The notes below the pieces were generated by a model. It ran no database searches and was not told the origin of the DNA. It saw only the letters and a list, made by a program, of their open reading frames with translations. DNA of 64,000 bases from Clostridiales bacterium (lineage in GTDB: Bacteria > Bacillota > Clostridia > Lachnospirales > Lachnospiraceae), in assembly GCA_021199255.1 (NCBI GenBank), contig JAJQIK010000045.1:62001-126000 (forward strand). Reading direction: 5' to 3'. The translations under genes were made by a program, and so were the position numbers. Position 1 is the first letter of the stretch. Each line of letters begins with the position of its first letter. Positions 7,608 to 29,314 of this stretch are shown here, one piece after another.

Positions 7608-7644
7608 CAGAAGAAAAATTGCATTGACAGAAATGAGGATTTCA

Positions 7645-8394: not shown

Positions 8395-8430
8395 TTTTGA
8401 TTTGTTTAGTAGAGAAGTGAGGCTGGTACC

Positions 8431-9621: not shown

Positions 9622-9640
9622 ATCATAAAGGAGACACGGC

Positions 9641-10849: not shown

Positions 10850-10861
10850 AAATGGAAGGGT

Positions 10862-11905: not shown

Positions 11906-11948
11906 ATAAATAGTAAGTGTACAGGCTGTGGAAAGGTATGGTTATGAT

Positions 11949-13148
11949 ATGGAAACGCTACAGCAGATCATTCAAACATTCGCCGCTTATGGAAAGACGG
12001 AAAACGGCGGAATCAGCAGAATATTTGGAAGCGAAGCCTACCTGAAGGCTTCCCTTGCGTTAAAGGAATATTTATTGTCAGAAGGAATCCAAAGCTATAT
12101 TGATTCCGTAGGAAACGTACATGGAGTATATGGAGAAGCAGAGAAGGAGGTTCTGATTGTCTCCCATTTAGATACCGTTGTTGAAGGAGGTATGTACGAC
12201 GGATTGTTGGGCGTGGCCGCGGGAATCCGTTGTCTGCTGAGATTCAAGGAGGAAAACGCAAAGCTGCCTTATCGGGTTCATCTGATTGCCACCAATGGAG
12301 AAGAGGGCAATATTTTAGGAGGAACCTTTGGCAGCAGGTGCCTGATGGGAGAATATAAGGATACCTTGCCGGAAAAGACCGCTCCGATTGTGGTTAACGT
12401 AGAGACGAGGGAGCCGCTTAGAAAGCAGGATATTATGGATTGCAGGCTTGATACCGGAAAAATCCATTCCTGTATAGAGCTTCATATCGAACAGGGAAGC
12501 AGGCTGGAAAAACAGGGTAGGCAGATAGGCGTTGTCACCGGAATTGTGGGACTCTGGAGATATAAAATTACGGTATTGGGAAACCGTAATCATTCCGGGA
12601 CTACGATGATGGAATACCGGGAAGACGCCCTGGTAAAAGCGGCAAAGGTCGTGGTTTATTGTGATGAACAGGCCAGAAGATATGGACAGGATCTGGTGGC
12701 AACCGTAAGCGGCGTTTCCGTTTCCCCTAATGCGTTGGCGGTTATTAATGATACCGTAGAAATGACATTAGAGTGCAGGAATCTGGACGAAGCTCTGTTG
12801 TACAGTTATATTGAGGACGTAAAAAAATATTGCGAAGCATTGGGAGATATCGTTATAACACAGACCGTTCGAAAAGCCGCTGTGGTATGCGATGAAAATA
12901 TTATTTATTCTATAGAAAGCATATGCCGGGAACGGAACTTTTCTTATACAAAGATGCCCAGCGGGGCGACCCATGATACGAGTATCTTTGGACTAAAGGT
13001 TCCGGTGGGAATGATATTTATACCGTCCCGCCAGGGGGTAAGCCATAATAAAGCCGAGTTCAGCAGTCCAGAGGATTGTGAAGCAGGCAGCGAGGTATTG
13101 TACGCCTATGTCAGAACAAAAATTTATGGAATGGAAGCTTCCATGTAA
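11949..13148 (+). CDS. M20-family Zn-dependent hydrolase (N-carbamoyl-L-amino acid hydrolase / allantoate amidohydrolase type)
   Basis: About 399 residues from the ATG at 11949 (GGAAAGG upstream); a GTG at 11928 in the same frame is an alternative start. Metal-binding and catalytic motifs are SHLDTVVEGGMYDG, NGEEGNILGGTFGSR and LHIEQGSRLE, with the dimerisation-domain NHSGTTMMEYREDA. This subfamily cleaves N-carbamoyl amino acids or ureidoglycolate-type compounds. Next to an ATC-hydrolase-family gene it could turn N-carbamoyl-L-cysteine into cysteine. The next gene starts before this one ends, so the two are coupled. Confidence 0.85.
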   Translation: METLQQIIQTFAAYGKTENGGISRIFGSEAYLKASLALKEYLLSEGIQSYIDSVGNVHGVYGEAEKEVLIVSHLDTVVEGGMYDGLLGVAAGIRCLLRFKEENAKLPYRVHLIATNGEEGNILGGTFGSRCLMGEYKDTLPEKTAPIVVNVETREPLRKQDIMDCRLDTGKIHSCIELHIEQGSRLEKQGRQIGVVTGIVGLWRYKITVLGNRNHSGTTMMEYREDALVKAAKVVVYCDEQARRYGQDLVATVSGVSVSPNALAVINDTVEMTLECRNLDEALLYSYIEDVKKYCEALGDIVITQTVRKAAVVCDENIIYSIESICRERNFSYTKMPSGATHDTSIFGLKVPVGMIFIPSRQGVSHNKAEFSSPEDCEAGSEVLYAYVRTKIYGMEASM

Positions 13149-14988: not shown

Positions 14989-15012
14989 GGGCTTAAAGGC
15001 CTGGAGGAAAAA

Positions 15013-15957
15013 ATGGAAAAATACGTATATTTACAGGAATATATTCATCCTATGGCAAAAGCCTTCTTAGAGAGTAAGGTGAAGGTAATCGACCGGATAG
15101 AGGAGATAAGCAAGGCAGATGCCATTATCAGCCGCAATCAATTTAAAGTGACAAAAGAAGTCCTTCTCAGCGCGCCAAATCTTAAGGTGATAGGCGTCCA
15201 TGGAACCGGCATGGATAACATAGATGTGGAGGAGGCGAAAAAAAGAGGAATAGAAATCTTCAATACGCCGGGTATGAATTCCCGGTCCGTTGCGGAATTA
15301 AATGTTCTTCTTGCCTTAAATTTATTAAGGAAAACAACACAGGCGGCTTATGATATCAAATCCGGAAAAGGAATGGAAAATGCCAAGCAGGATTATCAGG
15401 GAAAAGAATTGACAGGTAAGCGGGCAGGCTTTATTGGATATGGAAATATTGCAAAACAGACGGCGGATATTTTAAAAAATGGATTTTCCGTCAAGGTATG
15501 CGCATGGTCAAGATCGCTTACGCCAGAAAAAGCGGAAGAAGAACAGATTACATATTGCGCGGGAGCGGAAGAGGTACTGTCATGCGCCGATATTATCTTT
15601 CTGGGGCTTCGGTTTACCGAGGAAAATGAATATCTGATTAATAGGGATTCTTTGAAAATATGTAAACCCTCGGCCATATTGATCAATACCGCGAGAGGAA
15701 AGCTTGTTAAAGAGGAAGATTTATATTACGCTTTGACCCATCATATGATTGCCGCCGCCGCAAGCGACGTGTTCGAAAAGGAGCCGGTCAGCGCGGACAA
15801 CAGGCTGATATCTCTTGATAATTTTATTCCTACGCCTCATCTGGGAGCCAATACCGAGGAAGCGTTATATCGTGTAGGAATGGCGGTCGTCATGGGAGTG
15901 CTGGAGAGATTGTCCATTCCGCTGACAGAAGAGGAAAGAAATCGCAACCATATCTGA
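15013..15957 (+). CDS. D-isomer-specific 2-hydroxyacid dehydrogenase (phosphoglycerate dehydrogenase-like)
   Basis: 314 residues, preceded by CTGGAGGAAAAA. The NAD-binding motif is GFIGYGNIAKQTADI; the catalytic residues appear as Arg in NTARGKLVKEEDL, Glu in VFEKEPVS and His in PTPHLGANTEEA. It reversibly reduces a 2-oxo acid to a D-2-hydroxy acid. In this operon the likely role is to dispose of the oxo acid made by the aminotransferases; it lacks the C-terminal regulatory domain of biosynthetic SerA. Confidence 0.88.
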   Translation: MEKYVYLQEYIHPMAKAFLESKVKVIDRIEEISKADAIISRNQFKVTKEVLLSAPNLKVIGVHGTGMDNIDVEEAKKRGIEIFNTPGMNSRSVAELNVLLALNLLRKTTQAAYDIKSGKGMENAKQDYQGKELTGKRAGFIGYGNIAKQTADILKNGFSVKVCAWSRSLTPEKAEEEQITYCAGAEEVLSCADIIFLGLRFTEENEYLINRDSLKICKPSAILINTARGKLVKEEDLYYALTHHMIAAAASDVFEKEPVSADNRLISLDNFIPTPHLGANTEEALYRVGMAVVMGVLERLSIPLTEEERNRNHI

Positions 15958-15975
15958 ATGGAGTGAATTTTGATT

Positions 15976-17256
15976 ATGGATAAAGAAGATATCCGATACA
16001 AAACCTATGTTAATATTTTACACGAAGAACTGGTTCCGGCGATGGGATGCACAGAGCCGATTGCGATTGCCTATGCCGCGGCAAAAGCAAGGCAGGTGCT
16101 TGGTGAAAAGCCGGAACGCGTGCTTGTAGAAGCAAGCGGCAGTATCATCAAAAATGTGAAGAGTGTAATCGTACCTAATACAGATCATTTAAAAGGGATT
16201 CCGGCGGCTGCAATAGCTGGAATCGTGGCAGGAAATCCTGAGAAAAAGCTGGAGGTGCTGTCAGATATTGACGACAGTGACAAAAGAAAAATACGAGAAG
16301 AATCGGAACGGATACCCGTCGCTACAGAGCATATAGAAACAGGACACGTTTTCGATCTTGCCGTTACGGAATATGCGGGGGATTCCTATGTAAAAGTAAG
16401 GATTATGGATCATCATACCAATATCGTGCTGATCGAGAAGGATCATGAAATACTGCTCAACCATGAAGAAGCGTTGTCCTTCCATGAGAAAACGGAAGCC
16501 GACAGAAGTCTGTTAAATATCAAGGATATTTGGGAATTTGCTAATTGTGTGGAGCTTAAAGAGATAAGCCTCCTATTGGACAGGCAGATTCGCTGTAATC
16601 TGGCGATTGCGGAAGAAGGGCTGGAGGGTGATTACGGCGCTAATATTGGCAGCGTTCTGTTAAAGACTTATGGAAATAATATCCGTAATAGGGCCAAAGC
16701 CAAGGCGGCGGCAGGATCTGATGCCCGTATGAACGGATGCGAGCTGCCCGTCGTAATTAATTCCGGCAGCGGAAATCAAGGCATTACCTGTTCGGTTCCC
16801 CTGATAGAATATGCCAGGGAATTGCAGGTTGAAAAAGAAAAATTGTACAGGGCATTGGTCCTGTCTAATCTAATTGCCATTCATGAAAAAACAGGGATTG
16901 GGACGCTGTCCGCTTATTGCGGCGCGGTCAGCGCAGGAGCCGGGGCAGGAGCCGGTATCGCATATCTGTGCGGAGGCGATTATCAGGATATTATCCATAC
17001 GGTAGTAAATGCCCTGGCTATCGTATCGGGAATTGTCTGCGACGGGGCGAAGGCGTCCTGCGCGGCCAAAATTGCGGCTTCCGTAGACGCGGGAATCTTG
17101 GGGTATGAGATGTTTAAGAACGGCCAGGAATTTAAAGGCGGAGACGGTATCGTGATGCATGATATAGAATCTACTATCGAAGGTATCGGTAAATTAGGCA
17201 AGGAGGGTATGCGGGAAACAAATGAGGAGATCATTAAATTAATGATTGCCAATTAA
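15976..17256 (+). CDS. L-cysteine desulfidase-like protein (CyuA/UPF0597 family)
   Basis: 426 residues from ATG 15976 (GGAGTG 10 bases upstream; a TTG at 15970 is possible). Cys25 lies in AMGCTEPIA, the same position as the catalytic Cys25 of methanococcal L-cysteine desulfidase, and three or more cysteines in the C-terminal half (LSAYCGAVS, GIVCDGAKASC) fit an iron-sulfur site. Characterised members cleave cysteine to sulfide, ammonia and pyruvate. As the last gene of the operon it would use cysteine released by the two hydrolases upstream. Confidence 0.85.
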   Translation: MDKEDIRYKTYVNILHEELVPAMGCTEPIAIAYAAAKARQVLGEKPERVLVEASGSIIKNVKSVIVPNTDHLKGIPAAAIAGIVAGNPEKKLEVLSDIDDSDKRKIREESERIPVATEHIETGHVFDLAVTEYAGDSYVKVRIMDHHTNIVLIEKDHEILLNHEEALSFHEKTEADRSLLNIKDIWEFANCVELKEISLLLDRQIRCNLAIAEEGLEGDYGANIGSVLLKTYGNNIRNRAKAKAAAGSDARMNGCELPVVINSGSGNQGITCSVPLIEYARELQVEKEKLYRALVLSNLIAIHEKTGIGTLSAYCGAVSAGAGAGAGIAYLCGGDYQDIIHTVVNALAIVSGIVCDGAKASCAAKIAASVDAGILGYEMFKNGQEFKGGDGIVMHDIESTIEGIGKLGKEGMRETNEEIIKLMIAN

Positions 17257-17289
17257 GCTTATAGGTTTGTAAATTATATAGTTCATAGC

Positions 17290-17345
17290 TTATAATTATT
17301 ATAAAAATATTTATATTTGATTATAATTAGAGAAACATATATAAT
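17290..17345 (+). promoter_or_regulatory. Promoter with paired TTATAAT boxes, upstream of the transporter/nitrogenase-like operon
   Basis: TTATAAT boxes begin at 17290 and 17321, 31 bp apart. The second overlaps a -35 element TTGATT (17317-17322), followed after 17 bp by TATAAT (17340-17345). The 38-bp block 17290-17327 matches 7491-7528 at 32 positions, with a 14-bp identical core. Transcription points to the ABC transporter. The gene-free stretch 17257-17689 also holds a terminator, a second promoter and two palindromes, listed separately. Confidence 0.7.
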
Positions 17346-17412
17346 GAAAGAAATCAAAAAAGAAATATTTGTTATCGAAATTAAATAGCGTATGTAGTTT
17401 GAATGACAGAGA

Positions 17413-17440
17413 GGTCGTGAATTGGTTTCACGGCCTTTTT
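17413..17440 (+). terminator. Intrinsic terminator between the catabolic operon and the transporter operon
   Basis: The stem GGTCGTGAA / TTCACGGCC (one G-U pair) is followed by five T residues. It lies about 60 bases downstream of the start expected from the 17340 -10 element, as the 7579 hairpin does for the other operon, so it may attenuate that transcript as well as end transcription from the upstream operon. Confidence 0.7.
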
Positions 17441-17522
17441 GAATGGAAATTGGTGGAAGAAGGATAGGGCGCATGTTGGTTTTATAATGATCTGATTATG
17501 ATAATTATAAATAAAAAAGTAA

Positions 17523-17551
17523 TTGACAGGTTAATAAGTGATTTGTAATAA
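17523..17551 (+). promoter_or_regulatory. Consensus-like promoter of the transporter/nitrogenase-like operon
   Basis: TTGACA (17523-17528), a 17-bp spacer, then TAATAA (17546-17551). It lies about 140 bp before the binding-protein gene and gives a leader that includes the two palindromes at 17623-17658. Confidence 0.65.
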
Positions 17552-17622
17552 TCAATTCTATTAAAGTATATAATTCCTACTGAAAATATAGGTTATTAAA
17601 GGGAAATAAAATACAAAAGAAT

Positions 17623-17658
17623 CCCGTATGATACGGGTTCTGGCGTTTTGCAAACGCC
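17623..17658 (+). repeat. Two adjacent perfect inverted repeats in the leader
   Basis: CCCGTATGATACGGG (17623-17637) and GGCGTTTTGCAAACGCC (17642-17658) are each perfect palindromes with 7-base arms, separated by four bases, and end 13 bases before the GAGAGGAG of the first gene. They can be DNA operators or two stacked RNA hairpins. I do not recognise a known riboswitch. Confidence 0.7.
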
Positions 17659-17689
17659 TAAAGAAAGAAAAAGAGAGGAGAGTTGTATT

Positions 17690-18562
17690 ATGAAAACAAG
17701 AGGTAGAAAAGGAACGATAGGCACAATATTGATATGCTCTATGTTGCTGGGGATTATCACAGGTTGCGGAGCATCTGATGAAGATTCTTCTGTTGACGTA
17801 AGTACAGAGGAGGTTACAACATCACAGGATGAGACAGAAGCAGAGGTAAAAACAGAGACGATTATTGTGGGAACAAGTACCAGTTATATGCCTTATTGTT
17901 ATCTGGACAGCGATACCAATGAATTTACTGGATATGATGTGGAGGTTTTGAAAGCAGTAGACGAACTTCTGCCACAATATGAATTTGAGTTTCAGGGGTA
18001 TGATACAACAGAGCGTTTAATGGCGCTTGAATCCGATAAAATCGATATTGCCGCCGGACAGTTTGAAAAAAATGAGGAGAGAGAAGAGAAATATCTATTT
18101 TCAACAGTCGGTTATACCAATGCGTCCTCACAAATTGTCGTAGCTGGCGACAATACTACAATTAACAGCATTGATGATTTATCAGGAAAGAGCGTATATG
18201 TTATTTCCAATAGCAATGCGTCTTATCAAATGGAGAAATATAATACAGATAATGATGCAAATATTGATCTGGTATATGGTGAAAATAATTTTGAGGTAAT
18301 TAATACAATGCTGGAAAATGGTTCGATTGATGCTTATATTCAAACTGCAAGAACGGTTGCTTTGAATAATGAAGCTTATGGCACTGACCATAAGGTAGTG
18401 GGAGATCCGATTATGGCATCAGAAACTTACTTTCTGTTTAATAAGTCTAATACGGCTCTTCAGGAAGAAGTAGATGGAGCCTTAACGGAGTTGAAGGAAT
18501 CCGGAAAGCTTGCTGAAATTTGTATCGAATGGTTAGGGCAGGATTTTACGCCGGAAAATTAA
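17690..18562 (+). CDS. Amino-acid ABC transporter substrate-binding lipoprotein
   Basis: 290 residues from ATG 17690, with GAGAGGAGAG upstream. A lipoprotein signal ends at Cys26 (IITGC), followed by an acidic linker and a type II periplasmic-binding fold of the polar amino acid/cystine class: GTSTSYMPYCYLD, TGYDVEVLKAV and an Arg in NEEREEKYLFS where carboxylate-binding members have theirs. It captures a ligand outside the membrane for the two permeases encoded next. The ligand cannot be named; cystine-like, amino-thiol or other amino acids are possible. Confidence 0.9.
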   Translation: MKTRGRKGTIGTILICSMLLGIITGCGASDEDSSVDVSTEEVTTSQDETEAEVKTETIIVGTSTSYMPYCYLDSDTNEFTGYDVEVLKAVDELLPQYEFEFQGYDTTERLMALESDKIDIAAGQFEKNEEREEKYLFSTVGYTNASSQIVVAGDNTTINSIDDLSGKSVYVISNSNASYQMEKYNTDNDANIDLVYGENNFEVINTMLENGSIDAYIQTARTVALNNEAYGTDHKVVGDPIMASETYFLFNKSNTALQEEVDGALTELKESGKLAEICIEWLGQDFTPEN

Positions 18563-18599
18563 CTGGCAAGTATGGTTATAGTAGAAAAGAAGGAAAAAT

Positions 18600-19280
18600 A
18601 TGGATATTTTTAGTTTCAGCAGAATGATAGAATATTTCCCCAAACTTATTAAATGCCTTCCGGTAACGCTTTACATTGTAATAATGGCTATGGTATTTGG
18701 AACTATTTTGGGAGTAATCATTGCATTGCTCAGGATATATAAAATTCCGGTGCTAAATCAGTTGTCTGCATTTTATATTTCCTTTATCAGAGGTACGCCG
18801 ATTAATATTCAGCTTTTTATTGTATATTTTGGTGTTCCCATGTTGCTTTCCGGTATTTATCCACAAATAAACAGAGCGGAACCGATGCTGTTTGTTATTA
18901 TAACTTATGCGTTGAATAATGCTGCATTTTTCGCTGAGTTAATCAGAGCCGCAGTTACCGGTGTAGATTTTGGACAGAATGAAGCAGGATATTCTATAGG
19001 AATGACCAAATTGCAGACATTTTTCAGAATTACGGTTCCGCAGGCGTTTCGGATTGCAATACCGGATATTGGAAATACAATGATTAACCTGTTGAAGAAT
19101 ACGGCTTTGGCTTATACCTTAGGAATAATTGATTTGATGGGGGAAGTTGTCGTAATTGGCAGCACTACCCGTCATACGCTGGAAGGTTATATCAATGTTG
19201 CAATCATATATATTATTCTTTCAGTGCTTCTGGAACGATGCTTCTTAATGATTGAAAGAAAGCTGAATGTCAGAGCGTAA
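18600..19280 (+). CDS. Amino-acid ABC transporter permease (1)
   Basis: 226 residues with about five hydrophobic segments. The HisM/GlnP-type coupling region is FIRGTPINIQLFIVYFG and the EAA loop is AEAGYSIGMTK-like (NEAGYSIGMTKLQTFFRITVP). The family forms the membrane channel of polar amino-acid importers. It follows the binding protein by 37 bases and pairs with the second permease to form a probable heterodimer. Confidence 0.92.
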   Translation: MDIFSFSRMIEYFPKLIKCLPVTLYIVIMAMVFGTILGVIIALLRIYKIPVLNQLSAFYISFIRGTPINIQLFIVYFGVPMLLSGIYPQINRAEPMLFVIITYALNNAAFFAELIRAAVTGVDFGQNEAGYSIGMTKLQTFFRITVPQAFRIAIPDIGNTMINLLKNTALAYTLGIIDLMGEVVVIGSTTRHTLEGYINVAIIYIILSVLLERCFLMIERKLNVRA

Positions 19281-19295
19281 AGATAGGAGTCAGAT

Positions 19296-20003
19296 ATGTC
19301 CTTTGATTTTATTTTTTTTGTTGAAACATTCAAAGTTGGGTTAAGCTATCTTCCGACTACATTATATATATCCTTGTTGCCATTGTGTCTGGGATTGGTA
19401 ATTGGTACGTTGATTGCGGTTGCGCGAATGAGCAAATGCAAACCCTTGATTTATATTTCCAAATATTTTGTAGTTATTGTGAGAGGGATACCGCCGATTT
19501 TGATGTTGTTGCTTTTTTTCCTGACAATGACCAAAATATTTGACGCTATTGCAACAGGATTGCATTTACCATTTAATTCCAGTATTATTTCAGCTAAAAC
19601 AGTGGTAATTTGCGCACTAACCGTTATTGCCAGCGCAAATTTTGCAGAGACAATCAGAACTTCATTTAAGTCTGTTGGGCACGGGCAGATGGAGGCGGCA
19701 TATACAATAGGCATGGTAAGAGGAATGGCGATCCGCCGAATTATTATACCGCAGGCGCTCCCGGTTGCTATTCCTATTATCAGCAATACGTTTATTTCTT
19801 TGGTGAAATCTTCGTCTCTTGCTTATTTGTTAACAGTTATTGATGTTCTGAATGGTTGTAAGATTCAAGCGGATGTTTCTTACAAATTTCTGGAAGCATA
19901 TGTGGCGGCAGCAGTAATTTATTATATAATTTGCTTTTTGATTGAACAGATGGCAAGGGTGCTGACAAAGAAAGTTTCTTATTATAAATATAAGAGTGCA
20001 TAG
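19296..20003 (+). CDS. Amino-acid ABC transporter permease (2)
   Basis: 235 residues, with AGGAGTCAGAT before the start. It is paralogous to the preceding permease: VIVRGIPPILMLLLFF and the EAA loop MEAAYTIGMVRGMAIRRIIIPQA are in the same positions. Two distinct permeases indicate a heterodimeric channel, as in HisQM-type systems. It is 15 bases from the first permease and 12 bases from the ATPase. Confidence 0.92.
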   Translation: MSFDFIFFVETFKVGLSYLPTTLYISLLPLCLGLVIGTLIAVARMSKCKPLIYISKYFVVIVRGIPPILMLLLFFLTMTKIFDAIATGLHLPFNSSIISAKTVVICALTVIASANFAETIRTSFKSVGHGQMEAAYTIGMVRGMAIRRIIIPQALPVAIPIISNTFISLVKSSSLAYLLTVIDVLNGCKIQADVSYKFLEAYVAAAVIYYIICFLIEQMARVLTKKVSYYKYKSA

Positions 20004-20015
20004 GGAGCGAATGAC

Positions 20016-20753
20016 ATGATTGAGATGATCAATATACATAAGAGGTTTGGAAAAAATGAGATATTAAAGGGAGTTAATATTGAAGTGAAAGACGGCGAGG
20101 TTGTCGTCTTGCTGGGTCCCAGTGGTTCTGGAAAAACAACGCTGTTGAGATGTCTGAATTTTCTGGAAAAAGCGGATCAGGGAGAAATCGTTATTGGAGA
20201 TCGCAGGGTAGATGTCAAAAAGGCAAGTAAAAAAGAAATTTTAGAAATCAGAAGATGTACCAGCATGGTATTTCAGCAGTACAACCTTTTTCGGCATAAA
20301 ACAGCTTTGGAAAATGTTATGGAGGGTATGGTTCAGGTTCAGAAAAAGGACAAGCAGGAAGCCAGAGAACAAGCGGAAAACCTGCTGATTCAGGTTGGCC
20401 TTGGAGATAAAATAAACTTCTATCCAAGCCAGCTTTCAGGAGGACAGCAGCAACGTGTCGGAATAGCCAGAGCGTTGGCACTTAATCCAGAGGTTATTCT
20501 ATTTGATGAACCGACGTCGGCACTTGATCCAGAATTGATCGGAGAAGTTTTAAATGTTATGCGTGATGTGGCTAAGGCAGGTAAGACGATGATTGTCGCA
20601 ACGCATGAAATGACCTTTGCGAGTGAAATTGCTGATAAAGTTGTATTTATGTACGATGGCGTTATCGCTGAAGAGGGAACACCGGAATATATTTTTCATC
20701 AATCGGAAAATGAACAGTTAACAAAATTTTTGAAGCGTTTAAGAGAACATTAA
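20016..20753 (+). CDS. Amino-acid ABC transporter ATP-binding protein
   Basis: 245 residues, normal for GlnQ/HisP-type ATPases. Walker A is GPSGSGKTT, the Q-loop MVFQQYNLF, the signature LSGGQQQR, Walker B VILFDEPTSALDP and the switch histidine ATHEM. It energises import by the two permeases. The nitrogenase-like NifD gene starts only 16 bases downstream, so importer and enzyme are almost certainly co-transcribed. Confidence 0.95.
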   Translation: MIEMINIHKRFGKNEILKGVNIEVKDGEVVVLLGPSGSGKTTLLRCLNFLEKADQGEIVIGDRRVDVKKASKKEILEIRRCTSMVFQQYNLFRHKTALENVMEGMVQVQKKDKQEAREQAENLLIQVGLGDKINFYPSQLSGGQQQRVGIARALALNPEVILFDEPTSALDPELIGEVLNVMRDVAKAGKTMIVATHEMTFASEIADKVVFMYDGVIAEEGTPEYIFHQSENEQLTKFLKRLREH

Positions 20754-20769
20754 GGAAGGAAAGAAATCA

Positions 20770-22206
20770 ATGCCAGTAATAACAAAAAACAGGGAATTAA
20801 GACCTCATACATACACCGGCGGGGCGGGAAATTCCAGTGAAATGGAAAATAAATTTAAAGAAGGCTGTATGAAAAATTCCGAGCGCACTTTTGAACAGGC
20901 ATTGCAATGCCAGCAACAGAATAGTTTGAGTTGCCTGATTTCAATGGAAGATGCAGCATTTGTAATTCATTCGCCTTTGGGGTGTGCCGGATGTGTAGCA
21001 ACAGTTAATGAAAGCTATAAAGTAGGGCAGCATTATGCAGGGAAAGAAGTCTTGAAAAATGCGCATTATGTAGTGACCAATCTGGATCAAAAGGATGTTA
21101 TTTTAGGCGGTGAAAAAAAGTTAAGAAAAGGTATTACAGATGTGTATAATCGTTATCACCCCAAAATGATTTTTATTTTTACATCCTGTGCTTCCGGGAT
21201 TATCGGGGAGGATATCGACGCTGTTGCAGAGACAATGCAGGCAGAAATAGATGCGATTATTGTACCTGTCCATTGTGAAGGATTCCGATCAAGAATTATG
21301 TCTACAGGGTTTGACGCCGTATTCAATGCTCTTTCGGAATATGTGTTGAAGGATGAACATCCGGTTACGGATCAGCACTTAATTAATGTATTTGCTTCAA
21401 CCTACATAGGCGTACCCGATCAACGGGAAATTGCCAGAATACTTGCTGCTTTAGACTTGGTGCCAAACTTTATACCATTTTATTCAAATTATGAAAAAAT
21501 TAAAAAAATTCCGACAGCTATTGCATCTGTTTCACTCTGCCACGTTTTTGCGGATAATTTTATGCAGTGGTTAAACGATCAATATGGAATTCCCTTTTCC
21601 GTAACGGGGATGCCTTTGGGAACAAAAAATACGGACGATTGGTTAAGGGGCGTCGCGTTGCTGGTTGGCAAGGAAAAAGAGGCAGAGGAATTTATTGAGT
21701 CGGAGCATCAGCGGATTTCCGAAGATTTGGGAGTTTTGAAGGAAAAGCTGGGCGGAAAACGGGCTTTTATTTGTGCAGGTTCAGGTCGCTCCATGGCGAC
21801 AGCCAGGTTGATTGAAGATTTTGAGATGAAACTGGTGGGTATCCAGACGCCGCATTATGATGAGGTCGTGGCGCCAAAAATCGGCAGGCTGATTGAGGAA
21901 TATGGTGAAGATTTTGTGGTAGATATTGCAAGCCTTCAGCCTTTTGAACAGGCAAATCTGATTCGCAGGCTTAAACCTGATGTTTTCATCGGATTGGCAA
22001 ATTGGGCTTCCAGACAAGGGGTAGCAACAACACATGTGCTGGACTCTAAACATATTACACTGGGTTATACGGGACTTGTCTATCTTGGAAACAAAATTAA
22101 TGATGCGATTTCCAATAACGGATTAAATCAAAAACTGGCCAAACATAGACCCTTGCATTATAAGGAGAGTTGGTATGAGCAGAATCCGTTTCAATATCTT
22201 GTATAA
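20770..22206 (+). CDS. Nitrogenase-like component 1 alpha subunit (NifD-like)
   Basis: 478 residues, ATG after GGAAGGAAAGAAATCA. It belongs to the NifD/AnfD superfamily. By manual alignment to Azotobacter NifD the P-cluster ligands are Cys47, Cys72 (HSPLGCAGC) and Cys140 (SCASGIIGEDID); the cofactor ligands are Cys257 (SLCHVFADN, 15 residues before YGIP, as Cys275) and His422 (THVLD, as His442). Arg340 matches Arg359. The residues needed for N2 reduction differ: Met177 for Gln191 and Phe181 for His195 (CEGFRSRIMSTGF). So it should bind a P-cluster and a NifB-derived cofactor but may reduce another substrate. Cofactor ligands exclude BchN/ChlN. Confidence 0.85.
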   Translation: MPVITKNRELRPHTYTGGAGNSSEMENKFKEGCMKNSERTFEQALQCQQQNSLSCLISMEDAAFVIHSPLGCAGCVATVNESYKVGQHYAGKEVLKNAHYVVTNLDQKDVILGGEKKLRKGITDVYNRYHPKMIFIFTSCASGIIGEDIDAVAETMQAEIDAIIVPVHCEGFRSRIMSTGFDAVFNALSEYVLKDEHPVTDQHLINVFASTYIGVPDQREIARILAALDLVPNFIPFYSNYEKIKKIPTAIASVSLCHVFADNFMQWLNDQYGIPFSVTGMPLGTKNTDDWLRGVALLVGKEKEAEEFIESEHQRISEDLGVLKEKLGGKRAFICAGSGRSMATARLIEDFEMKLVGIQTPHYDEVVAPKIGRLIEEYGEDFVVDIASLQPFEQANLIRRLKPDVFIGLANWASRQGVATTHVLDSKHITLGYTGLVYLGNKINDAISNNGLNQKLAKHRPLHYKESWYEQNPFQYLV

Positions 22207-22221
22207 ATGAGGAGAGAAAAT

Positions 22222-23487
22222 ATGTCACAGTATATACAAAATCCAAGATCAAGCTGCGCATTAGGAGGAGCGTTTGCAACTGTCTCCAGAGTAGATGGAA
22301 TTATTCCCATTTATCATACCGGGCCGGGCTGCGGTCTGCAAACAGCTTCAACCGGCGGATATCCTACGAATGTAGTAGGAAGTGGGATACCCAGCAGCAA
22401 TATGCTTGAAAAACAGGTTGTTTTCGGTGGGATTAATCGCCTGCGCGATGAAATTAACGGGGCGCTGGAAGTAATGCAGGCAGATTTGTTCTATGTGCTT
22501 ACAGGTTGTGCGGCTGATATTATCGGCGATAATACAACGGATCTGGCGGAAGAATATAAAGATGCGGAAGTGCCGATTATTTTTATGGAAACAGGCGGAT
22601 TTAAAGGAAATAATTTAGTTGGACACCAATTGGTTATGGAAAGCTTTGCAAATAAAATTGCAAAAAAAGATTTTCAAAAACAGGATAATCTGGTGAATTT
22701 ATTTGGAATTGTCCCAGGTCATGAATTGGCATGGGCAGGAAATATTGATGAGATAACGCGGCTATTGGAAAAGCTGGGATTAAAGGTTAATAATTTCTTC
22801 GTTCCGGGGCAGGGAGTAGCTTCTATTCAGAATTCTTCCTCCGCTGCGCTTAATATTATCTGTACTCCATGGCTATTAAAGAATGTAGAAAAAGTATATG
22901 AAGACAATTTTAATATTCCCGCATTGAGATATCCGGGAACGCCGATTGGCCCTACAGCTACAGGTATATTTTTGAGAGAGGTGGGTGAAGCGTTACATTT
23001 GGAGGAAGCGCTGGTTGAAAATGTTATTGCTGAAGAAGAAGCAAAAACATATGCTTATCTGGAGGCGGCATCAAGAAATCTGACCAGATATCGCATGGGA
23101 ATTGTAGGAGATACCAATACGATTATTGGCATTACTAAATTTCTTGCAAACGATTATAGTCAGATTCCGGTTGTGATAATCGATACGGATGATGTTGTAA
23201 AAAAAGAAGATAAAGAAAAAATTATAGCGGAATTGACAGATTTGGAATATGGTGGAACACCAGATGTATTTTTTGAGGGAGACCAGTGGAAAATCAGGGA
23301 TACACTTAGAAAGTATAATCTGACCATGATCCTTGGAAGCACTTATGAAAAAGAGACCGCGGGAGAATTGGGAATTGCGAGTGTAACAATCAGTTCACCT
23401 TCTACGGATCGTGTAGTGCTGAACCATAAGTTTGCCGGATATGAAGGCTGCATTACCTTGGTAGAGGATACTTATTATAATTATTGA
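22222..23487 (+). CDS. Nitrogenase-like component 1 beta subunit (NifK-like)
   Basis: 421 residues from ATG 22222, with GAGGAGAG 5 bases upstream; an upstream in-frame ATG at 22207 overlaps that site. It is shorter than NifK (about 520), lacking much of the N-terminal extension. P-cluster cysteines are Cys12 (RSSCALGG), Cys37 (HTGPGCG) and Cys96 (LTGCAADIIGD). It starts 15 bases after the NifD-like gene and should form an alpha2beta2 complex with it. A separate beta subunit argues against the homomeric CfbD of F430 synthesis. No delta-subunit gene (anfG/vnfG) lies between. Confidence 0.85.
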   Translation: MSQYIQNPRSSCALGGAFATVSRVDGIIPIYHTGPGCGLQTASTGGYPTNVVGSGIPSSNMLEKQVVFGGINRLRDEINGALEVMQADLFYVLTGCAADIIGDNTTDLAEEYKDAEVPIIFMETGGFKGNNLVGHQLVMESFANKIAKKDFQKQDNLVNLFGIVPGHELAWAGNIDEITRLLEKLGLKVNNFFVPGQGVASIQNSSSAALNIICTPWLLKNVEKVYEDNFNIPALRYPGTPIGPTATGIFLREVGEALHLEEALVENVIAEEEAKTYAYLEAASRNLTRYRMGIVGDTNTIIGITKFLANDYSQIPVVIIDTDDVVKKEDKEKIIAELTDLEYGGTPDVFFEGDQWKIRDTLRKYNLTMILGSTYEKETAGELGIASVTISSPSTDRVVLNHKFAGYEGCITLVEDTYYNY

Positions 23488-23520
23488 AATTATAGATAAA
23501 CCAGAGCAAAGAAAATTTGA

Positions 23521-24366
<846 letters not shown>

Positions 24367-24399
24367 ACTAATTGACTGCACATTATGAAAGGAGAAGCT

Positions 24400-24726
24400 A
24401 TGGTCTTAATTAGAGCGATTATCAGGGTAGAGAAAACAGGTGATGTGCTGACAGAGTTATTAAATGCGGGATTTCCCGCTGTGACACAGATATCAGTATC
24501 CGGCAGAGGAAAACAGAAAGGGTTACAGGTAGGAAATATTTATTATGAAAAAATACCAAAAGAAATGTTGTTGATTGTTGTGGATGAAGAGGACAAAGAC
24601 GATGTTATTAAAATTATTATGCGGGTGGCGAGAATGGGAGAAAAAGGGCAATTTGGAGATGGCAGAATTTTTGTAAGTCGCGTAGACGAAGGGTATACCA
24701 TCAGCAACCAATCCAGAGATTTTTAA
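24400..24726 (+). CDS. NifI-type PII nitrogen-regulatory protein
   Basis: 108 residues from ATG 24400 (AAAGGAGAAGCT upstream). It is a PII-fold protein resembling NifI1: IRAIIRVEKTGDVLTELLNAGFPA, GRGKQKG, then a T-loop region VGNIYYEKIPKEMLL and GDGRIFVS. In methanogens and clostridia NifI1/NifI2 heteromers bind NifDK and inhibit it when 2-oxoglutarate is low. Only one NifI is present here, directly after the NifH-like gene. This suggests the enzyme answers to nitrogen or 2-oxoglutarate status, by family inference. Confidence 0.85.
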   Translation: MVLIRAIIRVEKTGDVLTELLNAGFPAVTQISVSGRGKQKGLQVGNIYYEKIPKEMLLIVVDEEDKDDVIKIIMRVARMGEKGQFGDGRIFVSRVDEGYTISNQSRDF

Positions 24727-24746
24727 GACGCGTCAAACAAAAGAGA

Positions 24747-25610
24747 ATGGACAAAAGAATGAGTAAAATTGATGAAAAAACAGAAAGACATCCATGCTAT
24801 AACTGTGCAGCGCACCAATATGCAAGAATACATTTGCCTATAGCCCCGAAATGTAATATCAGTTGTAATTATTGTGTCCGTAAATTTGACTGTCCTAATG
24901 AAAGCAGGCCAGGCGTTACTACGACGGTGTTAACGCCCGGAGAAGCATTAGAGCGTTACAAACAGGCGAAGCAGAAGCTGGATAATCTTACGGTGGCAGG
25001 CGTGGCTGGACCGGGGGATGCATTGGCAAATTTTGAAAATTTATCACAGACATTGCACATGATTCGGGCGTATGATTCAGAGGTTACTTTCTGTATCTCA
25101 ACCAATGGCCTGATGCTTCCCAGATATGCTTCAGAGTTGGCAGCTTTAGGGGTTTCTCATGTAACGGTAACAGTAAATACTGTCAATTCTGGAATTGGTG
25201 CTCAAATATATCGCTACGTAGATTATGAGGGAAAACGCTATACCGGACGAGAAGCGGCGGAAATTTTACTTTCTAATCAATTAAAAGGAATCGCAATGTT
25301 ATCGGAATCAGGAATTGTTTGCAAAGTAAATATCGTTATGATTCATGGTATTAATGATAAGGATATATTGAATGTTGTAAAAAAAGCACGAGAATTGAAT
25401 GTGATGATGACCAATATTATGCCAATGATTCCGGTTAAGGGAAGCGTGTTTGAAAAGATTGGGAAAACATCTGAAAAGGCGCTTTGGGAAATGCGTGAAG
25501 AATGTGGAAGATATTTAAAACAGATGCTGCATTGCAGACAGTGTCGGGCAGATGCAGTCGGCACACTGGATCATGACCATTCTGCCGAATGGCAGCAGAT
25601 AGTAAGTTAA
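24747..25610 (+). CDS. nifB: NifB-like radical SAM cofactor-biosynthesis protein
   Basis: 287 residues, the short form of NifB without a NafY/NifX-like domain. The radical SAM motif is CNISCNYC (Cys36, 40, 43), preceded by HPCYNCAAHQYAR and followed by KFDCPNESRPG; the C-terminus has the NifB hallmark HCRQCRADAVG. NifB fuses two [4Fe-4S] clusters into the carbide-containing L-cluster (NifB-co). Its presence means the component-1 proteins probably carry an L-cluster-derived cofactor. The ribosome binding site is weak; a second in-frame ATG follows at 24759. Confidence 0.92.
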   Translation: MDKRMSKIDEKTERHPCYNCAAHQYARIHLPIAPKCNISCNYCVRKFDCPNESRPGVTTTVLTPGEALERYKQAKQKLDNLTVAGVAGPGDALANFENLSQTLHMIRAYDSEVTFCISTNGLMLPRYASELAALGVSHVTVTVNTVNSGIGAQIYRYVDYEGKRYTGREAAEILLSNQLKGIAMLSESGIVCKVNIVMIHGINDKDILNVVKKARELNVMMTNIMPMIPVKGSVFEKIGKTSEKALWEMREECGRYLKQMLHCRQCRADAVGTLDHDHSAEWQQIVS

Positions 25611-25636
25611 TCATAGGTAAAGGAGGAGAAAATGTT

Positions 25637-25948
25637 ATGGAAAAACCACAAAAGCATATTTTGGTATGTACAAGCTGTAGACTAAACGGAGTACAGGCAG
25701 GAGCCTGTATCACAAAAAACTCTGATGAAATTGTTTCAGAATTTTTAGATCAATTGGAAGCAAATGAATTGTCAGACAGCGTTATGGTATCAAATACCGG
25801 CTGTTTTGGATTCTGTTCTAAAGGCCCTGTCGCAGTAGTATACCCTGATAATGTATGGTATGGGAATATTACTGTAGAAGATGTAGAGGAAATTGTGGAA
25901 GAGCATATTTTAAACGGAAATATTGTAGAGCATTTGCTTATGGATTAA
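25637..25948 (+). CDS. Thioredoxin-like [2Fe-2S] ferredoxin
   Basis: 103 residues from ATG 25637 with AGGAGGAG upstream. The four cluster cysteines follow the thioredoxin-fold ferredoxin pattern: ILVCTSCR, AGAC about a dozen residues later, and a C-x3-C pair in NTGCFGFCSKGPVAVVYPD. Such ferredoxins sit beside nif genes in several diazotrophs and may protect or reduce the nitrogenase proteins. Here it is the probable dedicated electron carrier or protective partner of the reductase; the role is inferred from position. Confidence 0.85.
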   Translation: MEKPQKHILVCTSCRLNGVQAGACITKNSDEIVSEFLDQLEANELSDSVMVSNTGCFGFCSKGPVAVVYPDNVWYGNITVEDVEEIVEEHILNGNIVEHLLMD

Positions 25949-25966
25949 AGAATCGGAGGAAAGCGA

Positions 25967-26593
25967 ATGGAGCGGGAAATAGCGGTTCTTATGGATGAAA
26001 ATAATCAGATAACATCGGGAACAGAGGCAGTTAGAATTATAAAGTATGAAAAGCCAGATACTGTTTGGCAGATACAAAGTAGTATTGAACTAAATGAGAT
26101 ATGTGTTAATTCGGAAGATGTGGATTTGGGTCAGGTCAGAAATTTTTATTTTAATTTGATAGGTCTGCTTGGTTCCTGTAGGATTTTACTTGGAACCAGT
26201 ATCAGAGGAATTTTATTCAGTGTATTTAGTAGTGTGGATTATTTGATTATAGAAACAGATTGTTTTGAAATGCAAATGCTGGACGAAATTTATCATAGCG
26301 CGATGTGTGAAGATCAAGTTGAGGAAAGACCGATACTTTCGGAAAAGCCAGAGCCTGTTGGGGTAAATGGAGAATATTATTTTGATTTTCTTTCATTAAA
26401 AAGGCAAATTAAAACCATAACATCGAGACAGACGATTAAACCGTTCTTAGAACAACAGGAATTTCGAAAACTTACAATCCTTTGTGATCATAAGATGCCC
26501 TGGCTTGATGACGTATTAAATAAACTGGATATGAATTGTGTGGAGAAAAATACGGGTAGCGGTATTGTACTTGTGATACAGCATAATTTATAG
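25967..26593 (+). CDS. AnfO-like nitrogenase accessory protein
   Basis: 208 residues with GGAGGAAAGCGA upstream. The N-terminal region (EIAVLMDENNQITS) and the central segment LLGSCRILLGTSIRGILFS are characteristic of AnfO, the accessory protein encoded beside Fe-only nitrogenase genes. The biochemical role of AnfO is not settled. It closes the operon 18 bases after the ferredoxin gene. Finding AnfO without the AnfG delta subunit is unusual. Assignment is by pattern recognition, so moderate. Confidence 0.72.
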   Translation: MEREIAVLMDENNQITSGTEAVRIIKYEKPDTVWQIQSSIELNEICVNSEDVDLGQVRNFYFNLIGLLGSCRILLGTSIRGILFSVFSSVDYLIIETDCFEMQMLDEIYHSAMCEDQVEERPILSEKPEPVGVNGEYYFDFLSLKRQIKTITSRQTIKPFLEQQEFRKLTILCDHKMPWLDDVLNKLDMNCVEKNTGSGIVLVIQHNL

Positions 26594-26647
26594 AAGTTTT
26601 CCAAATAGATTCTTAAAGCTTTAAAGTTGAAATTTAAGAAAAGCTAA

Positions 26648-27082
26648 TCATGGAAAATTGTTGATTCGGCAATCCCAGACGGCTTCTTCAATGGTAGCAA
26701 TACATTCATCAAGATGTTTGTTAATGTCGGAGCCCCAGAAATGGATGACCGTATAGCCAAGATAAAGAAGTTTTTTGTCGTTTTCCCAATCACGGGAACG
26801 GTTTCTTTCTATTTTCTTAATCCAGTAGTCGGAATTTTTTCCTTTTTTAAGGCGTAATTTAAGAATTTCCCAATCTTTTCCATGGAAAAATTCACTGTCA
26901 CAGAAGACTGCAATTTTGTATTTGGTTAAAACAATATCCGGTGATCCCGGGAGTGCTGTGTAGTTTTTGCGGTACCGATAACCCTTGTGCCAAAGCGCTT
27001 TGCGTAGAAGGAGTTCTATAGAAGTATCTTTACTACGGATTTTGCTCATGTTTTTAGAGATATCCTCTTGGCTGCGCGGCAT
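26648..27082 (-). CDS. vsr: Very short patch repair endonuclease Vsr
   Basis: 144 residues from the ATG at 27082. It starts MPRSQEDISKNMSKIRSKDTS and has the Vsr fold motifs GYRYRKNY, GSPDIVL, CDSEFFHG and the zinc/catalytic region HFWGSDINK. Vsr nicks at T:G mismatches made by deamination of 5-methylcytosine. It is divergent from the 5mC methyltransferase gene, as often found in type II systems, and converges with the AnfO-like gene. Confidence 0.93.
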   Translation of the reverse strand: MPRSQEDISKNMSKIRSKDTSIELLLRKALWHKGYRYRKNYTALPGSPDIVLTKYKIAVFCDSEFFHGKDWEILKLRLKKGKNSDYWIKKIERNRSRDWENDKKLLYLGYTVIHFWGSDINKHLDECIATIEEAVWDCRINNFP

Positions 27083-27245
27083 ATGATGGGTTTCTCCCTT
27101 CGTAATTTTTGGATATATTGTAGCAAATCCGGGGTAAATAAACAAGAGAAAATCTAATGATATCGTGAGGAATGGCTTGCTGTTGATTTTGATTTATGAT
27201 AGTATAAAAAGCGATATAGAGGAAGCTATATGCGGAGGTGTAGGA

Positions 27246-28499
27246 ATGGCCGTTTGTTATGACAGACTATGGAAATTATTAATTGATAAGAAAATGAACC
27301 GGACGGAATTGAAAGAAGCATCGGGGATCAGCTTCAACGTATTGGCACGGATGGGCAAGAATGAGCCGGTTTCTTTTGAAAGCATAGAGAAAATATGTTT
27401 TACACTAAAATGTGATATTGGAGATATTGTAGAGGTTCAGTTTGAGGATGGAGAGTTCAGTGGAGACGCTGCCAAAACATCTGAAAAGAAAACTTTGACC
27501 ACAATCGAATTATTTGCCGGGGCAGGGGGGCTTGCGTTGGGCGTTGAAAAGGCCGGATTTCATACGCTTGGCTTGATTGAATTTGACCAGGATGCGGCTG
27601 ATACCTTGTCGTTGAACCGTCCCAACTGGCGTGTAATTTGTGATGATATAGCCAAGATTTCTCCTTTGGATTTGGAGGAATATTTTGGAATCAAGAAGAA
27701 TGAGCTGGATCTTTTGTCCGGAGGCGCTCCATGTCAGGCATTTTCCTATGCAGGGAAGCGCCTGGGGTTGGAAGATGCAAGAGGGACATTGTTCTATCAT
27801 TATGCTGTTTTTTTACAGAAGCTTCAGCCGAAAATGTTCCTGTTTGAAAATGTGCGCGGCTTGCTTACCCATGACAAAGGACGCACCTACGCGACGATTA
27901 CCAACATTTTTGAACAGGCTGGATATACCATTGATAAGAAAGTGTTAAATGCCTGGGATTATGGGAATCCACAGAAGCGTGAAAGGCTGATAACGATCGG
28001 AATCCGGAATGACCTTGTTGGGAAGATAGAGTACCATTTTCCAGAACCGCATGATTATAAGCCGGTATTGAGGGACGTACTGCTTGACTGCCCGGATGGT
28101 CCGGGAGTTCCATACGGGGAAAATAAGAGAAAAATATTCGAACTTGTCCCGCCGGGCGGTTACTGGAGGGACATTGATCCTGAAATCGCGAAGGCGTATA
28201 TGAAAAGCTGCTGGGATATGGGCGGCGGTAGAACCGGGATATTAAGAAGGATGAGCCTGGATGAACCGTCCTTGGCCGTATTAACCTCACCTTCACAGAA
28301 ACAGACAGAAAGATGCCACCCACTGGAAGCAAGGCCATTTACAGTTCGTGAAAATGCCAGATGTCAGACCTTCCCGGATGATTGGAAGTTTTGCGGTAAT
28401 GTAAGCTCACAATATAAACAGGTAGGCAATGCGGTTCCGGTAAACCTGGCTTATGATATTGCAAAAGAAATCTATACAGCATTGGGAGGATTAGAGTAA
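27246..28499 (+). CDS. DNA cytosine-C5 methyltransferase with N-terminal Cro/XRE-type HTH domain
   Basis: 417 residues from ATG 27246 (GGAGGTG upstream). Residues 1-70 are a compact helix-turn-helix (LWKLLIDKKMNRTELKEASG, then FESIEKICFTLKCDIGDIV). The rest is a type II C5-methyltransferase: FAGAGGLALG (motif I), GGAPCQAFSYAGKR (motif IV with the catalytic Cys), FENVRGL (motif VI) and GNAVPVNLA (motif X). It protects the host site cut by the next gene. The fused HTH may let the enzyme repress its own operon, replacing a separate C protein. The stop overlaps the next start (TAATG). Confidence 0.95.
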   Translation: MAVCYDRLWKLLIDKKMNRTELKEASGISFNVLARMGKNEPVSFESIEKICFTLKCDIGDIVEVQFEDGEFSGDAAKTSEKKTLTTIELFAGAGGLALGVEKAGFHTLGLIEFDQDAADTLSLNRPNWRVICDDIAKISPLDLEEYFGIKKNELDLLSGGAPCQAFSYAGKRLGLEDARGTLFYHYAVFLQKLQPKMFLFENVRGLLTHDKGRTYATITNIFEQAGYTIDKKVLNAWDYGNPQKRERLITIGIRNDLVGKIEYHFPEPHDYKPVLRDVLLDCPDGPGVPYGENKRKIFELVPPGGYWRDIDPEIAKAYMKSCWDMGGGRTGILRRMSLDEPSLAVLTSPSQKQTERCHPLEARPFTVRENARCQTFPDDWKFCGNVSSQYKQVGNAVPVNLAYDIAKEIYTALGGLE

Positions 28500-29314
28500 T
28501 GGCGTGGAATTTAGATTTTATTTCAGAAGACAATTTTAAAGAGCATGTTCGGGCAACAATTATGAAATATGGTGAAAAGCTGGAATCATACGATTTGAAA
28601 CGGTTTAATAGTAATCTGATTGATCCCATCAAGTTGATTTTTGATAAATCCGTGTACAGGTCGAGCTGGGAAGAAATTGTAAATAATGAAATTTTCCGGC
28701 AGAGGGACAAATCTAACAATAATGATATCGGGTATTTTCATCAGAATATCTTTTCCTATTTCAAAGGCTGCGAGGTTCCACAGGCAGGATGGGATGTGAT
28801 ATATAAGAATCCAGATGGTATTCAAATGCCGGACGGAGACATCGTACATACGGTTTATGTCGAGATGAAAAACAAGCATAATACGATGAATTCCGCTTCT
28901 TCTGCGAAGACGTACATTAAAATGCAAGGGCAGATTCTGGAGGACGACGACTGTGCCTGTCTCCTGGTGGAAGCGATAGCGAAAAGATCGCAGAATATCA
29001 AGTGGATGACGAAAGTGGACGGAAAAAATGTCCAGCATAGGTTGATCCGGCGTGTTAGTATGGACAGGTTCTATGAGATTCTTACTGGGGAAGAAGACGC
29101 TTTCTTTAAGATGTGTATGGCGCTTCCGGAGGTTATCAATGTGGTTGTCAACGAGGAAGAAAGCGTTTCTGTTCCGCATGATACTGTAATTCAGGAGCTG
29201 CGGAATGTGGCTGCACTATATGACGAGGCATCAGAGGATTTGTCGATGGCGATGGCGGTTTATATGCTTGGCTTCAATACCTATATGGGGTTTGAGAATT
29301 TAAAGAAGGTTTAA
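28499..29314 (+). CDS. Eco47II-like type II restriction endonuclease
   Basis: 271 residues, starting within TAATG shared with the methyltransferase stop. The sequence (WNLDFISEDNFKEHV near the start, then VYVEMKNKHNTMNSASSAK) resembles the Eco47II restriction endonuclease family, which cuts GGNCC/GGWCC-type sites. The E-x-K in VEMKNKHN is the probable PD-(D/E)xK active site, with an acidic residue before it (PDGDIVH). Coupling to the methyltransferase ensures joint expression. Target specificity is inferred from the family only. Confidence 0.85.
   Translation: MAWNLDFISEDNFKEHVRATIMKYGEKLESYDLKRFNSNLIDPIKLIFDKSVYRSSWEEIVNNEIFRQRDKSNNNDIGYFHQNIFSYFKGCEVPQAGWDVIYKNPDGIQMPDGDIVHTVYVEMKNKHNTMNSASSAKTYIKMQGQILEDDDCACLLVEAIAKRSQNIKWMTKVDGKNVQHRLIRRVSMDRFYEILTGEEDAFFKMCMALPEVINVVVNEEESVSVPHDTVIQELRNVAALYDEASEDLSMAMAVYMLGFNTYMGFENLKKV

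Follow-up and report, generated by a model that had tools for sequence, protein, structure and literature searches.

The DNA analysed here (the window) is a stretch of 64,000 nucleotides from a Clostridiales bacterium, a gut-type anaerobe (contig JAJQIK010000045.1, positions 62,001 to 126,000), and it holds an operon of eleven genes in which an amino-acid ABC (ATP-binding cassette) importer precedes a nitrogenase-like enzyme with catalytic subunits D and K, an Fe protein (H), and accessory genes. Judged from their sequences, D and K are not a nitrogenase, and D falls in a separate clade, designated class A. We propose, with a probability of about one half, that the operon serves the uptake of a cysteine-type organic sulfur compound and its reductive breakdown under anoxia via C–S cleavage; on the best reading, drawn by analogy, it would do under anoxia what the O2-dependent tcyJKLMN-cmo pathway does in Bacillus. 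The proposal is built on gene order, protein families, the clade of D, ligand conservation, importer type, and a recurring linkage, all of which were directly observed.

Organization of the operon

The eleven genes at 17690–26593 all lie on the + strand and are spaced as one unit (coordinates verified in the window), which bears out the unit of importer and nifD-, nifK-, nifH-, nifI-, nifB-, ferredoxin- and anfO-like genes described in the initial annotation. In operon order they are as follows:

17690..18562, + strand, substrate-binding lipoprotein of the YtmK/TcyK type (SBP_bac_3 101.9 bits; solved structures 2o1m (YtmK) 167.8, 4gvo (Lmo2349) 165.7, next 82.3)
18600..19280, + strand, importer permease 1 (BPD_transp_1 64.2 bits)
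19296..20003, + strand, importer permease 2 (top NCBIfam model a cystine ABC permease, 112.8 bits, cut-off 300)
20016..20753, + strand, importer ATPase (GlnQ 302.6 and cystine TcyN 300.8 bits, both below cut-off)
20770..22206, + strand, D, catalytic alpha subunit, class A group IV nitrogenase-like (PF00148 242 bits; tree; residues)
22207..23487, + strand, K, catalytic beta subunit (PF00148 222 bits; MarK is the top PDB match)
23524..24366, + strand, H, Fe protein of the canonical NifH type (PF00142 425 bits; TIGR01287 456 bits, cut-off 394)
24385..24726, + strand, single NifI1-type P-II regulator (P-II 70 bits)
24747..25610, + strand, NifB core radical S-adenosylmethionine (SAM) enzyme without a NifX domain (TIGR01290 348.5 bits, cut-off 343.65)
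25589..25948, + strand, 2Fe-2S ferredoxin of the Clostridium type (NF041612 144 bits, cut-off 150; likely start 25637)
25967..26593, + strand, AnfO-like accessory protein (PF09582 115.7 bits, cut-off 30.3)

The successive intergenic gaps are 37, 15, 12, 16, 0, 36, 18, 20, −22, and 18 bases, the 16 bases being those from the stop of the importer ATPase to the start of D; the value of −22 holds for the first ATG of the ferredoxin gene, and a start at 25637 would make it +26. The operon starts at the ATG at 17690, just after GAGAGGAGAG, where the list of open reading frames had a TTG at 17648. The GC content is 0.38 in the importer genes, 0.39–0.41 from D to NifB, 0.36 in the ferredoxin gene, and 0.35 in the AnfO-like gene, with 0.43 for the whole window, which lies inside a 233 kb contig of a 3.08 Mb assembly of 93 contigs.

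Phylogenetic position of D and K

Compared with solved structures, D scored 241.8 bits against MarD (next 136) and K 256.9 bits against MarK (next 71.3), which makes MarBHDK of Rhodospirillum rubrum (PDB 9FMG), a methylthio-alkane reductase (Mar), their closest solved relative. MarDK cleaves C–S bonds; according to excerpts of PMC12552129, it carries P- and [Fe8S9C]-clusters and does not reduce N2. That D and K best match this C–S cleaving enzyme, and by wide margins, speaks for C–S cleavage.

Trees of D were computed with FastTree from 74 hand-chosen sequences among those fetched and with IQ-TREE from 38 of these 74. Class A (the window protein and 25 others), class B, class B2, and a clade bearing the Mar hallmarks were each recovered with a FastTree support of 1.0 and an ultrafast bootstrap (UFBoot) value of 100, and the side holding Nif, Vnf, Anf, and NifE with 0.99 and 97, respectively. 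Two nodes were weak, namely the joining of class A with B2 (UFBoot 72) and the place of the window protein within class A (59). D thus lies outside Nif/Vnf/Anf in the tree, which covers D; K is placed by its ranking against PDB structures only, and this also puts it outside. The initial annotation had suggested a reductase of the nitrogenase superfamily that acts on an imported small compound, and had named as refutation a clustering of D, K, and H inside diazotrophic clades; D (tree) and K (PDB ranking) are not inside such a clade, but H, NifI, and NifB group with bona fide nif/anf proteins (see below), so that this refutation applies to H and not to D.

No PF00148 genes were found in the source assembly beyond two DK pairs, and it therefore lacks NifEN. 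The source genome has no class B, and its second DK pair belongs to the distant class B2 and lies elsewhere, together with an H and a NifB of its own. In this second Mar-like system (L054, G000:C37:88263-92985), the loop I His is kept and the Arg is lost, and the neighbors are a CysK-like gene, NifB, NifX, a distant H, and a sulfonate-type importer. As a separate observation, Clostridium sp. LS (G793) and Ruminiclostridium hungatei (G798) have 28 PF00148 matches each, or about 14 nitrogenase-type pairs, true nitrogenases included.

Active-site and cluster residues

All six P-cluster-type cysteines are kept in the window proteins (C47, C72, and C140 of D; C17, C42, and C101 of K), and D has C257 and H422 as residues of the cofactor type. 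In Mar, according to excerpts of PMC12552129, the cluster ligands are Cys270 and the loop I His429, Arg428-His429 may be a Mar hallmark, and where nitrogenase has Gln191 and His195, Mar has Trp195 and Phe199. In our multiple alignment, the Trp, the Phe, and the Arg-His pair were all present in class B (14/14), the Endomicrobium family (3/3), and MarD. Throughout class A (26/26, including the window), the Cys270 equivalent is kept, while Trp195 and the loop I Arg-His are absent; the Phe199 position holds Phe in 24 of the 26 and Tyr in two. The window D has Met177 at the Trp195/Gln191 position and Phe181 at the His195 position, and so also lacks the nitrogenase pair Gln191 and His195.

The window enzyme is thus like MarBHDK in its P-cluster cysteines, its equivalents of Cys270 and Phe199, its NifB-type maturase, and its sulfur context; it differs in the deleted Arg428-His429, the change of Trp195 to Met, a His at the nitrogenase position, the separate clade of D, the NifH-type H, and the cystine-type importer. 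Methylthio-alkane reductase, which the initial annotation had cited as a member of the superfamily that acts on organic sulfur, was rejected as its identity by the missing published hallmarks Arg428-His429 and Trp195.

The His at position 422 is invariant in class A (26/26 in the multiple alignment and 16/16 in a separate set). The multiple alignment sets it two columns off NifD His442, whereas it aligned with His442, in the context HxxDx6G[YF]xG, when the profile of 16 class A D proteins was compared with that of nine from Nif/Vnf/Anf. Cys257 and His422 thus appear to match the nitrogenase cofactor ligands Cys275 and His442. The Lys after the conserved Gly of NifD, which we take to be a homocitrate-side residue, is absent from the window D in the multiple alignment. 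Since group IV proteins were described as having Cys275 without His442 (Dos Santos 2012; excerpts of PMC3464626), equating His422 with His442 is tentative.

Type of the importer

The binding proteins of the window, of an Elusimicrobiota locus (L140), and of C. aminobutyricum (L143) scored 168, 172, and 198 bits against YtmK of B. subtilis and 166, 149, and 192 bits against Lmo2349, with the next solved protein at 82–97 bits; for the window protein, these two matches have double the bits of other solved proteins. YtmK is presumably the TcyK of B. subtilis and Lmo2349 that of Listeria. The one control, a binding protein beside a Mar-like system in G215, reached just 40–45 bits against solved structures. 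When binding proteins were compared with each other, those of class A loci grouped with that of the window and apart from the controls (L061, L062, L063, L253, and L254), with two outliers, a 28% protein of L168 and the second, 23% protein of L189. The window importer is accordingly assigned, by similarity, to the cystine (TcyKLMN) type. In Listeria, TcyKLMN takes up or binds cystine and cysteine (excerpts of PMC9239247). The 3.08 Mb source assembly holds three SBP_bac_3 genes without stops.

Importer and sulfur genes near other class A loci

We surveyed the best 80 of at least 580 confirmed class A loci. An importer was called where a binding protein (at least 33%), a permease (33%), and an ATPase (55%) all lay within 10 kb of class A D/K. 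The enzyme references were a cystathionine lyase/synthase-like and an O-acetylhomoserine (OAH)-sulfhydrylase-like protein, both counted as PF01053, and two CysK references, of which CysK_2 passes the CysK cut-off and CysK_1 fails it, hence the label CysK-like.

A full importer stood near class A in 21 of the 80 loci (raw count) and in 18 of the 50 with 5 kb available on both sides. By record titles, the 21 span five phyla; among them are C. akagii, C. acidisoli, C. puniceum, C. aminobutyricum, Propionispira, R. hungatei, and metagenome-assembled genomes (MAGs) titled Elusimicrobiota, Coriobacteriia, Dehalococcoidia, and Spirochaetaceae. CysK-like or PF01053 genes were found at 39/80 loci, a class B or B2 D at 42/80, and a sulfonate-type importer at 15/80. 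Excerpts of Dos Santos 2012 (PMC3464626) likewise note CysK or OAH sulfhydrylase as frequent neighbors of group IV genes with Cys275, and ABC transporters next to some nitrogenase-like genes; among the open-licence papers searched, we found none that pairs a cystine-type importer with a nitrogenase-like enzyme. Because the type of importer points to organic sulfur, as do the CysK-like and PF01053 neighbors, a sulfur amino acid is the favored substrate, and of the small amino, amine, or sulfur compounds first suggested, the sulfur option appears preferable to the amine.

Closer relatives gave a mixed picture of the linkage, whose absence from all relatives the initial annotation had named as refutation. 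A D match occurs in four of 77 genomes of the genus, the window's included, and a TcyK-type binding protein stands beside D in none of the other three: in G212, the only other one with class A, an amino-acid importer sits between the class B and class A genes, and G215 and G220 have another importer again, beside a Mar-hallmark D. In the order, 43/392 genomes match D at 1e-60 and 11 have class A, the window's included; in three of them (G773, G766, and G711), a window-type importer lies near class A or class B. The linkage recurs near class A D/K elsewhere and is looser within the genus. In the Elusimicrobiota locus L140 and the Ectomicrobium loci L152/L243, class A is the sole DK pair and is interleaved with the importer.

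A nif-like cassette joined to class A

Against solved structures, H scored 495 bits with 1cp2 and 281 with MarH; it groups with NifH and is 86% to the NifH of a nif operon in G099. The P-II protein is 64% to NifI1 of nif operons and at most 37% to NifI2, and the operon holds this NifI1 type without NifI2. NifB is 52–56% to unfused nif/anf NifB and at most 40% to the NifB of Mar-like systems; in the NifB tree, fused NifB-N proteins had been cut to their first 460 residues and missed the NifB part, so that only unfused NifB is informative there, and by BLAST the fused NifB of L068 is 61% to that of the window. Because H, NifI, and NifB are nif-like while D and K are not nitrogenase, the operon is, by sequence affinity, a chimera of Mar-related D/K with a nif-like H, NifI, and NifB. 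It resembles the nitrogenase operons L068, L093, L094, and L249 (same family, Clostridium) in the families of H, NifI1, NifB, and ferredoxin or AnfO and in the His ligand; unlike them, it has a D of another clade and an amino-acid importer, and lacks NifEN and NifI2.

Among the best 80 other class A loci, none has a P-II protein, this ferredoxin, or AnfO in the available flanks, up to 10 kb. AnfO exceeds the cut-off in 11/397 family genomes including the window's; of the eight viewed among the ten others, six carry it in nif operons and two (G420 and G037) have no nif genes on the stretch seen. Order genomes match at 1e-15 in 4/392 cases, again counting the window's; two of these add further nif operons, and the match in G517 has no nif genes nearby. 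Among the family and order genomes and class A loci searched, the window operon is the only such hybrid. Separately, in G037 an aminotransferase, a ferredoxin, and AnfO share a 3.1 kb contig (L089, G037:C32), and that genome has no PF00148 match at all.

Comparison with other sulfur and group IV systems

In Bacillus, the operon of tcyJKLMN also holds cmo/snd genes (PMC11487621), and the ytn cluster has been linked to the breakdown of S-methyl- and S-benzylcysteine (PMC12757645). The window operon has the same importer type next to genes that would likewise degrade S-modified cysteine, but O2-using monooxygenases cleave there and a nitrogenase-like reductase would do so here. SsuCAB and IsrBHDK of Rhodobacter capsulatus, which serve anoxic isethionate assimilation where SsuED requires O2, offer a similar set of importer, nitrogenase-like HDK, and radical SAM enzyme for anaerobic sulfur assimilation (excerpts of PMC11423573). 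IsrD, by the same excerpts, has one P-cluster Cys and neither cofactor ligand, and IsrB is BciD-like (PMC11423573), whereas the window D has three P-cluster cysteines and Cys257, and its NifB exceeds the NifB cut-off; the window enzyme is thus not an isethionate reductase of that kind.

The group IV system NfaHDK of Endomicrobium proavitum, with NifB, NifX, and H, also has CysK/PF01053 neighbors, but its D lies in the Mar-hallmark clade, is 31% to the window D, and is accompanied by a sulfonate-type importer. Its D/K locus (L240, G844:C1:833000-852900) encodes a D with the Mar hallmark residues, and its operon also holds that importer, a CysK-like gene, and PF01053 enzymes, which is hard to square with the N2 fixation reported for this species (excerpts of PMC9147875).

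Proposed function and alternatives

We infer the substrate, electron donor, cluster, and reaction as follows. The TcyK-type importer would take up cystine or, more probably, a thioether, namely an S-substituted cysteine. The 2Fe-2S ferredoxin would feed the NifH-type Fe protein, which with ATP would pass electrons to a P-cluster-bearing DK heterotetramer. The cluster at its active site is probably the one that NifB makes, [Fe8S9C]-like and without Mo or homocitrate, and would be held by Cys257 and the nitrogenase-type His422. A two-electron C–S cleavage would yield cysteine or another thiol or sulfide, to be reused by CysK and related enzymes. NifI may link activity to nitrogen status or may be a passenger of the nif cassette.

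Several observations weigh against this proposal. The exact substrate is not readable from the importer sequence, and the operon itself has no CysK, NifX, or PF01053 gene. At the thresholds set, no full importer was found in 59/80 class A loci; 30/80 have less than 5 kb on a side, yet the importer is also missing from 32 of the 50 loci that have both flanks, and 25/80 have neither this importer nor a sulfonate-type importer, CysK-like, or PF01053 gene. The importer of G212 is distant from that of the window (ATPase 59%, permeases 34–35%, binding protein 24%). Class B genes are the neighbors of the importer at several loci, and in G755 it shares a contig with class B while class A is on another (L131, L121). 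Rfam gave zero matches in the window and in the eight loci scanned.

The strongest of the rivals, although we regard it as unlikely, is a sulfur-starvation regulon: the importer would simply scavenge cystine, and class A DK would act on a different organic sulfur compound, a thioether or sulfonate taken up by another route. The clusters and importers that class A and class B share, the G755 importer being with B and not A, agree with such a regulon, as do the sulfonate-type importers at 15/80 loci and the binding of cystine and cysteine by TcyKLMN in Listeria (excerpts of PMC9239247). It accounts poorly for L140 and L152/L243, with their sole, importer-interleaved class A pair, and for class B in genomes without class A, where none of the four neighborhoods viewed has a window-type importer.

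That the enzyme is a group IV dinitrogenase, perhaps a weak one, is improbable. The nif-type H, NifI, and NifB and His422 would suit N2 fixation, and E. proavitum, said to have group IV genes alone, is reported to incorporate 15N2 (excerpts of PMC9147875); the D of that species is in the other clade, with the Mar hallmarks. The window D is outside the Nif clade, has Met177/Phe181 for Gln191/His195, and lacks the NifD Lys after the conserved Gly; the source assembly has no NifEN, and MarDK, with both its P- and [Fe8S9C]-clusters, does not reduce N2 (excerpts of PMC12552129). Equally improbable is a NifEN-like scaffold role, in which class A DK would mature the cofactor of a neighboring class B (Mar-like) enzyme: a second Mar-like D occurs in 15/15 other class A genomes of the family and order searches, and class A and B often adjoin and share H and NifB, but class A is the sole DK pair in two Elusimicrobiota MAGs (G789 and G790), the window genome has no class B and its distant B2 elsewhere has its own H and NifB, and Mar-like D is found without class A.

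A broader proposal, offered tentatively and at less than even odds, is that class A forms a branch of the nitrogenase superfamily that spans phyla and is dedicated to imported S-substituted cysteines, an anaerobic cysteine dealkylase with a precursor-type cluster on nitrogenase-type Cys/His in a pocket without N2-binding residues, and that the window operon is a natural hybrid whose catalytic part took over a nitrogenase H-NifI-NifB-ferredoxin-AnfO cassette. The recurring importer gives a group IV nitrogenase-like clade a concrete candidate substrate class, and anaerobic C–S cleavage of a cysteine-type compound, if true, would explain the recovery of sulfur by strict anaerobes from S-alkylated cysteines in the absence of O2. 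A nitrogenase-type His ligand in a different pocket would mean that cofactor ligation is separable from N2 chemistry. The hybrid raises the possibility that a sulfur enzyme draws on nif-type H and NifB, a warning that nifH or nifB alone is no proof of N2 fixation in gut bacteria.

Boundaries and neighboring genes

Two features lie between the operon and the genes upstream:

17411..17437, + strand, terminator-like hairpin (−16.4 kcal/mol; T run 17436-17440; absent from the consensus scan list)
17523..17552, + strand, sigma-70-type promoter match (TTGACA-18-AATAAT, TG before the second hexamer; 11/12; best in 17100-26750)

The total of promoter matches in the region is not above chance (35 against a shuffle mean of 32.2). 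The hairpin probably closes the upstream cluster, and because it and the best promoter match stand before 17690, the operon is probably transcribed on its own, apart from that cluster.

The upstream cluster (7624-17256), with a divergent LysR gene ahead of it, is of the amino-acid catabolic kind. It encodes an ATC-hydrolase-like protein and an N-carbamoyl amidase besides two aminotransferases, an S9 peptidase, an SDH_alpha protein, and a 2-hydroxyacid dehydrogenase. It resembled a cysteine pathway and was considered as part of the system, but was rejected, as the hairpin and promoter match separate the two and it is probably a separate transcript. Its ATC-hydrolase-like gene occurs in 2/77 genus genomes, and one of the two, G189, has a related cluster with another importer and no D match. 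None of the best 80 class A loci gave a match to the S9 peptidase, amidase, SDH_alpha protein, or dehydrogenase, and the only matches of the other genes of at least 30% were to aminotransferases (31%) and LysR-type regulators (35–48%). A link to the operon is possible through G037, where an aminotransferase (66%) shares a contig with ferredoxin and AnfO, but that genome has no PF00148 gene. Directly 3′ of the operon (26648-29314), translations read by eye suggest a Vsr-like endonuclease, a cytosine methyltransferase-like gene, and a possible restriction gene.

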